Both the position numbers and the translations under genes were made by a program. Under the pieces are notes generated by a model. That model was not told the DNA's origin. It saw only the letters and a program-made list of their open reading frames with translations, and did not search any database. A DNA stretch of 42,056 nucleotides from positions 1-42,056 of the IMG/VR virus record IMGVR_UViG_3300035664_001001. The stretch is one strand, 5' to 3'. Positions 9,649 to 21,834 of the stretch are shown in pieces (the stretch's first letter is position 1; every line of letters starts with the position of its first letter). The stretch is from a virus.

Positions 9649-11037
9649 TCACCCACCAGGCTTCATTTTAACACCAAGTGCTTTATTGCGAGCAGCATCA
9701 GATTGTCTAGCAGTGGCAAGTTTTTTAGCAGCGGCAGCAGCATCCGATTTCTTATATGCACCTGCAAATAAAGATCTTCCAATTCTTTCCAGTGGATTTG
9801 AAGAAGTTTTTGCAAGTGACTGAGCACTTGGTCCTGCTTTATAAACTGCTTTACCACCTTTATATGCAAGGTATCCTGCTGTTGATTGTCCACCTCTTTG
9901 AACAACACCAGTTTTAGCAAGTCCAACTGTTTTTCTTTGTGATCCAGAACCAGTGGTCATTGTATTCTTTTTGGTATCAAATGTTGTTTTTCCACCAATA
10001 CCTTTGATAGCAGTTCCTGCCTGGCGTTGACGATTTGCAGTTGCCATTGCTGATTTTTCTTTTCCAGTTGCTCCAGCAACTGTTTCAGATGCTTTTCCAG
10101 CAAGATTAGAACCTGCCACATATCCACCAATACCACCAAGTGCTGCACCTACTCCAGTTCCTATTGGACCAGCAAGTGATCCCAAAGCAGCACCACCAGC
10201 CGCACCTGCTTTAGCACCAGCCCATCCACCTGCTGCTTTTGTTGCACCCATTGCAATTGCAGAACCAGTTTTGCGACCTCTAGATTTTTGATCTAAAGTT
10301 TCTAAACCTGCTTCAAGTCCATAAGCAGCACGACCTAAATTCCTACCTAAACCGGAAGGAAATTTACCTGTAGTAGAACTTGGTTTTACGGCACTTAAAG
10401 ATTTTGGATTAACAGTTTTTCCTAAAGTAGGTGCTTTTGGAGCACTTGCTTTTCCAGCAGAAGGAAGTGCTTTTGGTTTTGCTGTAATATCTTTTACATT
10501 TACTGCTTGAATTGGTGGAGTTGTTGCTGGTTTGGTAGAAGATGTTGTTGCTAATGTTCCACCTTTTTGTCCGGGAGGTAATGCTTTTGTGGTTGGAGGA
10601 TTTGAAGTTTGTCTAATTACTTGTTGTCCCGGAGAAACTTTTGGTGCTTCTGGAGCAGCTGCAGGAAGGCGTTTTGTTGCTTTTACTGGTTCAGTCCCAA
10701 CAAAAGGAGTTCTTCCACCTGTAAAATTTTGTGCTTGACCACTTTTTGTAAGTAGTGATCCTTGTCTTGCTTCTCCAGCACTTCTAACTTGTGATCCAGA
10801 AACTTTAGTTGTTTTTGGTTCCGGAATACTCAATTGTCCTGAAGAAACTTTTGGTGCTTCCGGAGAACCGGCAGGAAGTCTTTTAGATGCTGGAAGTGGT
10901 GTGGGATCAGTTGCGGTGAATGGAGTTCTTCCGCCTTTAAAATTTTGTGGTTTTCCACTACGAGTAAATAATGATCCTTGCCTTGCTTCTTCTTCATTCA
11001 AATATGACTCTTCCAAAAACTGACTAAAGGACTTCAT
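9649..11037 (-). CDS. Late protein with capsid-targeting-like N-terminus and internal repeat (462 aa)
   Basis: Residues 1-11, MKSFSQFLEES, align without gaps to the capsid-targeting peptide of T4 internal proteins (MKTYQEFIAEA), with a candidate gp21-protease cut after Glu10. A roughly 50-residue unit is then repeated (18-68 and 89-138; both begin EARQGSL and end APKVS.GQ). The middle is Ala/Pro/Thr-rich. A glycine-zipper stretch follows (about 255-325, GGAALGSLAGPIGTGVGAAL), which could insert in a membrane. It has a late promoter at 11062-11069. A head-packaged, ejected protein is my inference. Confidence 0.82.
   Translation of the reverse strand: MKSFSQFLEESYLNEEEARQGSLFTRSGKPQNFKGGRTPFTATDPTPLPASKRLPAGSPEAPKVSSGQLSIPEPKTTKVSGSQVRSAGEARQGSLLTKSGQAQNFTGGRTPFVGTEPVKATKRLPAAAPEAPKVSPGQQVIRQTSNPPTTKALPPGQKGGTLATTSSTKPATTPPIQAVNVKDITAKPKALPSAGKASAPKAPTLGKTVNPKSLSAVKPSSTTGKFPSGLGRNLGRAAYGLEAGLETLDQKSRGRKTGSAIAMGATKAAGGWAGAKAGAAGGAALGSLAGPIGTGVGAALGGIGGYVAGSNLAGKASETVAGATGKEKSAMATANRQRQAGTAIKGIGGKTTFDTKKNTMTTGSGSQRKTVGLAKTGVVQRGGQSTAGYLAYKGGKAVYKAGPSAQSLAKTSSNPLERIGRSLFAGAYKKSDAAAAAKKLATARQSDAARNKALGVKMKPGG
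10624..10986 (-). repeat. Intragenic duplicated unit of about 150 bp
   Basis: Two copies (10834-10986 and 10624-10773) encode EARQGSLFTRSGKPQNFKGG and EARQGSLLTKSGQAQNFTGG with similar downstream residues. They are separated by about 60 bp. The copies have diverged but remain in frame. Confidence 0.85.
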
Positions 11038-20511: not shown

Positions 20512-21834
20512 TTAACCTTTTACTTTTTTCCTATTTTTATTTATCAAATTAACACCATAAGGTTTTCCACCACTTTGAATATTTTCCATACCAGTTCCAA
20601 TTGCACCCGGAGTCATCATTGCTGCATATTTAAATGCACCTAAAGTTCCCATTAATGTATTTGGTTTTCCAGGAAGTCTCATCATTCTATCCATGTGCTT
20701 TTCAGAATATGATTCTTTTACATCTTTAATCCACGATTTAAACATCATTCCATTTTCAGTTACACAAATTAAGTAATTAGTTCCTCTACGAATAATTTTA
20801 CCATTTAATCCAGTATTTAAATTTTCGACAAAAGTTCCAACTTTAAAAATATTTTTATCAATATAATTTTCCCTTAACGATTGTGAGTCGAATTTTGGTG
20901 CAATTTCCCAAGTATTATATCCTTCTTGTTGTATTTCTTGAATATCCATTCCTTGCCTAACAAGATCAAAAAGTTGAAGTGCTTCTTTATTTTTAATTTC
21001 AGAAGGAAGTCCTGATCTGAATGTTATGAAATCTCCTTCAGCTGCTGCAAGTCTAAGTCTGGATGCAGAAACTCCTTCCACGCCTTTATTACTATCAGGA
21101 TCTCTATCTCCCGATGAAATTACATCAATTACATCAAATTGATAAAGTTGTCCATTGTAATCATTGGATAATCTTTCAAATTCCTTAACCCTATCTGAAC
21201 CACCAACGATTCTAACATTGGTATATCCATCGTTATGTGCCTTTTTAAGGACATCAAAGATGGTTCTAAAATTTGAATCATTTACAATTCTTTCACTATG
21301 ATCAGGAAACATCCTTCTCATATATGAAATTTTTGTATCAGGATCTAATGGATTTTTCTTTTTATCCTGACTACGAGAAGGGACAATAATATAATCACCA
21401 TCATCTTCTATTGCTGCCATTGCAGCAGTATCCATCAATTGTTGATGACCAACTGTTGGTGGATTAAAGCGTCCAAAAGCAATTGTCAATGTTCCCTTAG
21501 TTTTAGGAACTGGTGGGGGCGTTGCAACTGGTGCTTCTTGAGGAATTTCTTCTTGAGGTTGCTGCTCTACAGGAACTTCTTGCGAGGATGCAGGTTGTTC
21601 CGGAGTTGAAGACCCAAGAGGAATATTTTTCTCAAACTCTCCCTGCTTAGGATCTTTACCACCAATAATTTGACGTTTGTTGAAATACTTCAATTGACCA
21701 CCCACAGTCTTTGCCTCAAATTCACCAGTGGCCCTATTATACCACCCCCCATGCCCATCGCCAACAAGACCAAGACGTTTTGCTTGAACTGATGCGGAGG
21801 TTGCTTCCGTTATGAATTGGTGAAATTTTTTCAT
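20512..21834 (-). CDS. Late protein: capsid-targeting peptide plus nucleotidyltransferase domain (440 aa)
   Basis: Residues 1-11, MKKFHQFITEA, match the T4 internal-protein capsid-targeting peptide (MKTYQEFIAEA) with an ITE|A site for prohead-protease cleavage. After a Pro/Gln linker (75-110) comes an HIGH-type nucleotidyltransferase domain (about 114-270): AFGRFNPPTVGHQQLM with TxGH (127-130), YIIVPSRSQDKKKNP, RIVGGSDR, and VSASRLR (255-261) as the second nucleotide-binding motif. The family includes NMN adenylyltransferases and phosphopantetheine adenylyltransferases; the substrate is not determinable. A small beta-barrel-like C-terminal region follows (KVGTFVENLNTGLNGKIIRR). The late-like promoter 21878-21889 supports virion packaging. 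Confidence 0.85.
   Translation of the reverse strand: MKKFHQFITEATSASVQAKRLGLVGDGHGGWYNRATGEFEAKTVGGQLKYFNKRQIIGGKDPKQGEFEKNIPLGSSTPEQPASSQEVPVEQQPQEEIPQEAPVATPPPVPKTKGTLTIAFGRFNPPTVGHQQLMDTAAMAAIEDDGDYIIVPSRSQDKKKNPLDPDTKISYMRRMFPDHSERIVNDSNFRTIFDVLKKAHNDGYTNVRIVGGSDRVKEFERLSNDYNGQLYQFDVIDVISSGDRDPDSNKGVEGVSASRLRLAAAEGDFITFRSGLPSEIKNKEALQLFDLVRQGMDIQEIQQEGYNTWEIAPKFDSQSLRENYIDKNIFKVGTFVENLNTGLNGKIIRRGTNYLICVTENGMMFKSWIKDVKESYSEKHMDRMMRLPGKPNTLMGTLGAFKYAAMMTPGAIGTGMENIQSGGKPYGVNLINKNRKKVKG
20538..20545 (-). promoter_or_regulatory. Late-type promoter (GATAAATA)
   Basis: The motif has seven of eight matches on the minus strand, 36 bp before the 551-aa gene and inside the 3' end of the 440-aa gene. 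Confidence 0.55.

Follow-up and report, generated by a model that had tools for sequence, protein, structure and literature searches.

A putative capsid-targeting peptide on a nucleotidyltransferase of a freshwater T4-like cyanophage

Does a T4-like cyanophage carry a nucleotidyltransferase inside its head and deliver it to the host along with its DNA? The question is raised by a minus-strand gene in a 42 kb stretch of a virus record, the whole of which was analyzed and is referred to here as the window. This window covers part of the genome of a freshwater T4-like cyanophage, a near relative of Synechococcus phage S-SRM01, whose gp258 (94.5% protein identity) is the closest annotated relative of the encoded protein in the phage collection. 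Genes for tRNA-Ala and tRNA-Leu lie directly before the open reading frame (ORF). A first-pass annotation had proposed that the protein begins with the peptide that targets T4 internal proteins to the capsid, that this peptide is followed by a prohead-protease site, and that the remainder is an enzyme, perhaps an NMN adenylyltransferase, injected with the genome. The features on which our evaluation of this proposal is based are collected in the table.

Table. Features of the nucleotidyltransferase gene, with coordinates in the window
Feature	Position	Strand	Basis or content
Whole ORF, 440 aa, ATG at 21834	20512..21834	-	Targeting peptide, small beta domain, disordered linker, HIGH-type nucleotidyltransferase and C-terminal beta domain
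Putative capsid-targeting peptide MKKFHQFITE, residues 1-10, predicted prohead-protease cut E10|A11	21805..21834	-	T4 ipII/ipIII identity; N-terminal enrichment; conserved F4, F7, E10, A11
Small beta-rich domain, residues 12-50 (AKRLGL..GHGGWY..EAKT)	21685..21801	-	AlphaFold2 pLDDT about 83-90; alignment gap (missing in shorter relatives)
Pro/Gln-rich disordered linker, residues 51-111, length variable	21502..21684	-	pLDDT 40-55 over most of it; alignment
HIGH-superfamily nucleotidyltransferase domain, residues 112-296, GRFNPPTVGH ... NPL ... GxDR ... SASxxR	20947..21501	-	Pfam, alignment, AlphaFold2, Foldseek, profiles
C-terminal beta domain, residues 330-376	20707..20847	-	phrog_4808, 6e-13; separate gene in S-RSM4-like phages
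Pair of overlapping AATAAATA boxes resembling late promoters, about 45-55 bp before the start codon	21878..21889	-	Strand bias; upstream conservation

The N-terminal peptide and its distribution

The protein begins MKKFHQFITEA. The T4 sequence with which it had been aligned, MKTYQEFIAEA, is borne out by the genome record NC_000866, in which the starts of ipII (MKTYQEFIAEAR) and ipIII (MKTYQEFIAEAS) both contain it. In T4 IPIII, ten N-terminal residues are enough for packaging, with residues 4 and 7 serving mainly in targeting and residues 8 and 10 in processing (PMC9026906), and the cyanophage peptide agrees with that of T4 IPII and IPIII at every position known to matter. In a set of 37 non-redundant tagged relatives, F or Y occupies position 4, F position 7, one of I, L, V, or F position 8, and E position 10, with A at position 11 in 36; the anchor of this count partly enforces the pattern and allowed Y or D at the aromatic or acidic places. 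Positions 3, 5, 6, and 9 are variable. An independent MAFFT alignment likewise reveals near-invariant F4, F7, E10, and A11, and a version shorter by one residue, MRFRQFIIEA, still keeps the F..F[IL].EA spacing. Judged by these correspondences, the first ten residues represent a T4-type capsid-targeting sequence, which would be expected to serve the same function in this phage.

In S-SRM01, this type of start is far above chance: K.[FY]..F[ILM].E is found at the N-terminus of 4 of 309 ORFs but at not one of 69,060 internal positions. S-SCSM1 has it at 2 of 254 N-termini and 0 of 70,853 internal positions. Of 348 relatives collected, all members of four groups bear the tag (79/79, 21/21, 80/80, and 80/80), and F..F[ILVF]xE(A) is kept in all 260 of these proteins, in which tag and enzyme are separated by about 25 to 125 residues that cannot be aligned between groups. 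Because no N-terminal pattern entered the scans from S-SM1 and S-N03, the presence of the tag in 101 of the 101 proteins that they yielded is not an artefact of the search; the scans from P0001 and P-RSM6 each included one such pattern. The tag is found in none of the 80 members of an S-RSM4-like clade, whose proteins begin at the enzyme motif, and homologues in enterobacterial jumbo phages likewise lack it. In a tree of the enzyme domain, the distribution of tagged and untagged states requires two changes, which, given the long branches leading to the jumbo-phage and S-RSM4 proteins, may be gains or losses. The tagged and untagged clades constitute a natural comparison.

The late-type promoter boxes that had been noted upstream of the gene survive in part. 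No TATAAATA box is present upstream of the ORF, and it is AATAAATA that occurs there, twice. The NATAAATA type is strongly biased toward the coding strand in S-SRM01 (30 versus 2 for AATAAATA, 32 versus 3 for TATAAATA) and is found within 120 bp upstream of the gene in 76 of 79 close relatives, against a background of 7.5%; the same interval contains almost no such box in the other groups. Boxes of the TTATAAGTA and TATAACTA types show no strand bias (4 versus 7 for the former) and are not credible as late promoters.

The enzyme domain and its substrate

The TVGH and SASRLR motifs by which the domain had been assigned to the HIGH-type nucleotidyltransferases are present, and the pocket, for which degeneracy had been named as a point against the proposal, is intact. 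Residues G121, P125, G129, H130, N161-P162-L163, K168, G212, R215, and R261, which cover the GxxxP..GH loop, NPL, K168, GxDR, and the arginine of SxSxxR, are invariant in 32 relatives. The Pfam model CTP_transf_like scores above its curated cut-off (1.8e-6) and matches all 32, with the GxxxPx(H/T)xGH and SxSxxR motifs located in a Rossmann-like domain. In the AlphaFold2 model, this domain has a pLDDT mostly above 90, and the linker and tail are disordered (overall pTM 0.49). Its motifs and profile matches place the domain in the HIGH superfamily of nucleotidyltransferases. The C-terminal beta domain, which forms its own gene in S-RSM4-like phages (L087:3034-3288), is often annotated as a ribonucleotide reductase alpha subunit or NrdB, in what looks like a misannotation.

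Adenylyltransferase activity is likely, and NMN or NaMN is the leading guess for the substrate at a little under even odds; neither can be put more strongly because all scores fall far below curated cut-offs (22.7 bits versus 341 for TIGR01526, 16.3 versus 112 for TIGR00482). Among the 32 relatives, model matches correspond to NMN/NaMN adenylyltransferase in 25-27 cases, PPAT in 4, and FAD synthetase in 2, and the best PDB profile match is an archaeal NMNAT (1f9a, E 0.0075). Direct searching of the PDB with the single protein returned only chance matches. The specific activity proposed at first pass is retained as the nearest match among sequence models, but neither a curated cut-off nor the fold singles it out.

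It is a substantial possibility, though one we would not favor, that the protein is packaged and cleaved as proposed but is a PPAT-like enzyme, an FMN/FAD or other nucleotidyltransferase, or a cytidylyltransferase rather than an NMN adenylyltransferase. The structural comparison did not separate NMNAT from PPAT or FAD synthetase: Foldseek retrieved NadD, NMNAT, PPAT, and FAD synthetase at similar levels, and once scores were normalized to the length of the target, the fit of PPATs (0.65-0.70) was no worse than that of NadD. Moreover, the first histidine of HxGH is replaced by threonine in this protein, and TxGH occurs in place of HxGH in PPATs. The family label (PHROG 395) is cytidyltransferase, but SxSxxR is of the ISSTxxR type characteristic of adenylyltransferases and not of the RTxGISTT type of CTP enzymes, and the sequence models favor NMN/NaMN adenylyltransferases in most relatives.

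A mainly structural or scaffold-associated head protein, in which the fold is kept for binding and not for catalysis, is unlikely. The extra N- and C-terminal domains and the position of the gene among those for other virion proteins in S-SCSM1 would fit such a role, but the pocket residues remain invariant down to about 35-40% identity, and the S-RSM4-like clade and jumbo phages have the same pocket in a stand-alone protein that lacks the tag.

Virion presence and predicted processing

Three relatives have been detected in CsCl-purified virions in published proteome studies, and all three carry the tag. S-SCSM1 ORF91, which is 48% identical and starts MKSFLQFLKEA, was called an NMNAT by authors who proposed that the virion carries it and that it affects NAD (PMC9602691). 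For S-SZBM1, the cytidylyltransferase, ORF140 (MRFRQFIIEA), was the only enzyme detected (PMC9146016), and S-CREM2 ORF154 (MKNFSSFLTEA) was identified by three unique peptides (PMC10665884). Few peptides underlie these mass spectrometry detections, 2-3 for two of the proteins. A rival account, in which the N-terminus is amphipathic by chance or for some unrelated reason and the detections are carry-over of an abundant infection protein, is very unlikely. Two of the three author groups do warn of such carry-over (PMC9602691, PMC10665884), but the account is opposed by the motif statistics, the complete conservation alongside differing linkers, the match to the positions mapped in T4 (PMC9026906), and the lack of any other enzyme among the proteins detected in S-SZBM1 virions (PMC9146016).

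The tag alone is not fully predictive of virion detection. One of the two tagged S-SCSM1 proteins is in the virion list, which is too few for an enrichment of tagged proteins to be assessed, and the other, of 106 aa, may have been missed. The S-SCSM1 nucleotidyltransferase gene resides within five consecutive virion-flagged genes (ORFs 89-93, L097:38358-43836), the other four of which encode no tag. In our window, the downstream 551-aa gene was considered as a homologue of the S-SCSM1 virion protein at the same place, but no BLASTP match was obtained.

With regard to processing, the first-pass annotation had placed an [IL]xE|A cut after residue 10, and ITE|A is indeed present there, with E10 and A11 kept in relatives; no [ILV]xEA site other than ITEA is retained throughout the family. 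A gp21-type head maturation protease adjoins the scaffold and capsid genes in the close relative S-SRM01, in a region outside this window. The major capsid protein sites of S-SRM01 (RSFLSE|AS) and S-SCSM1 (SFLAE|AP) have the same form, and a cut at ITE|A would therefore fit a gp21-type enzyme. Predicted cleavage between Glu10 and Ala11 is thus well motivated. Separately, a [VLI]xE sequence (residues 372-374, window 20713-20721) is kept at the end of the C-terminal domain in 29 of the 30 relatives having that domain. A second prohead-protease cut here, like that reported at the T4 Alt C-terminus, is conceivable, but we rejected it as a conserved site: the residue at E374 is kept and that at +1 is not, and the sequence is present even where almost no tail follows.

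Because the tag is conserved and three tagged relatives have been detected in purified virions, packaging of the protein in the head is very likely, and this part of the first-pass proposal is strongly supported. We propose that the tag would bind the protein into the prohead core of this T4-like cyanophage as an internal head protein, that a gp21-type protease would cut after Glu10 during head maturation, and that the 430-residue mature protein, from Ala11 onward, would be left among the packaged DNA and be ejected into the host together with the genome. There, the HIGH-superfamily domain would catalyze nucleotidyl transfer, with ATP as the most likely donor and NMN or NaMN as the most likely acceptor, and would be at hand at once, before phage genes are expressed. 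To packaging, processing, and delivery of a nucleotidyltransferase we assign a probability of roughly 0.75.

Several other proteins start in the same manner. In the window, a 462-aa Ala/Gly/Pro/Lys-rich homologue of S-SRM01 gp270 (9649-11037, minus strand) has the same targeting peptide (MKSFSQFLEESYLNEEEA) and is a candidate internal head protein. A conserved family of about 105 aa encoded near the terminase gene, phrog_1742, includes S-SRM01 gp208 (L093:28583-28891) and S-SCSM1 ORF30 (L096:44215-44535); its members start MKSFKQFISES or MKTFKQFMSES and are candidate packaged proteins, although the S-SCSM1 virion list does not contain this one. S-SRM01 gp061 (L091:47292-47495), a Cys-containing 67-aa protein from a small-gene region, has a tag-like start (MKSFQEFLFEEE), and P-SSM7 encodes a Lys-rich protein of 172 aa with the start MKTYSQFIEEG (L090:4491-5009) near its tagged nucleotidyltransferase gene.

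NAD supply and comparison with known systems

The first-pass annotation speculated that the enzyme might support NAD supply at entry or counter NAD-depleting defenses. TIR-type NADases release nicotinamide and ADP-ribose derivatives, which NMNAT alone cannot reuse. A NAPRTase-fold partner, either a nicotinamide phosphoribosyltransferase or an ADP-ribosyltransferase, was sought with the Nampt/NAPRTase model PF04095 and was absent from seven complete related cyanophage genomes (control positive in 6 of 14 genomes); a NUDIX partner was likewise absent apart from one in S-SCSM1. The lack of a phosphoribosyltransferase in these seven genomes weakens a stand-alone role against NAD depletion, which is speculation. 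Since NMN or NaMN would have to come from the host, the enzyme would more probably support the NAD supply in general at entry than form a dedicated anti-defense pathway. That T4-like cyanophages as a family use a cleavable T4-type tag to deliver a pre-made NAD-synthesizing adenylyltransferase from the virion in the first minutes of infection, with a sister clade keeping the enzyme untagged and expressed only inside the cell, is a tentative generalization that we consider less probable than not.

Virion presence of relatives and the NAD idea are already published. What appears to be new is the packaging signal, together with the division into tagged and untagged clades. Neither the targeting peptide nor the predicted cut is mentioned in the accessible text of the S-SCSM1, S-SZBM1, and S-CREM2 papers, and a literature search on capsid targeting and cyanophages, which covered few subscription papers so that an earlier mention may exist, found no link to this protein. 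The tag explains why such relatives are found inside purified cyanobacterial viruses. Two of the three proteome papers could not rule out contamination, and the conserved packaging signal goes far to settle that doubt. T4-type head targeting probably operates in Kyanoviridae, and with the tag as a ten-residue marker, further injected proteins could be sought in phages of marine and fresh waters.

Phages known to supply NAD encode Nampt/NAPRTase or Namat (PMC7824862, PMC12774641). Such systems (vibriophage NAPRTase plus NMNAT; NARP1 Adps plus Namat) share NAD-making chemistry with this protein if the NMNAT assignment holds, but differ in that no packaging signal is described for them in the text consulted. 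The cyanophage virion proteins of PHROG 395 share homology with it in the enzyme and C-terminal domains. Three of them were reported from purified virions, with a NAD role proposed by some authors, whereas virion presence of the protein described here is predicted. T4 IPI, IPII, and IPIII share the N-terminal MK.[FY]..F, and IPII and IPIII also the [IL]xE|A directly after it, but they are small, basic proteins whose mature parts are unrelated to this one, with IPI being a restriction inhibitor. The T4 Alt ADP-ribosyltransferase is a different enzyme, and its propeptide sequence differs from this tag. Like the proposed product of this gene, however, Alt is an enzyme that travels in the head, undergoes processing by gp21, and enters the host by injection (PMC9026906).
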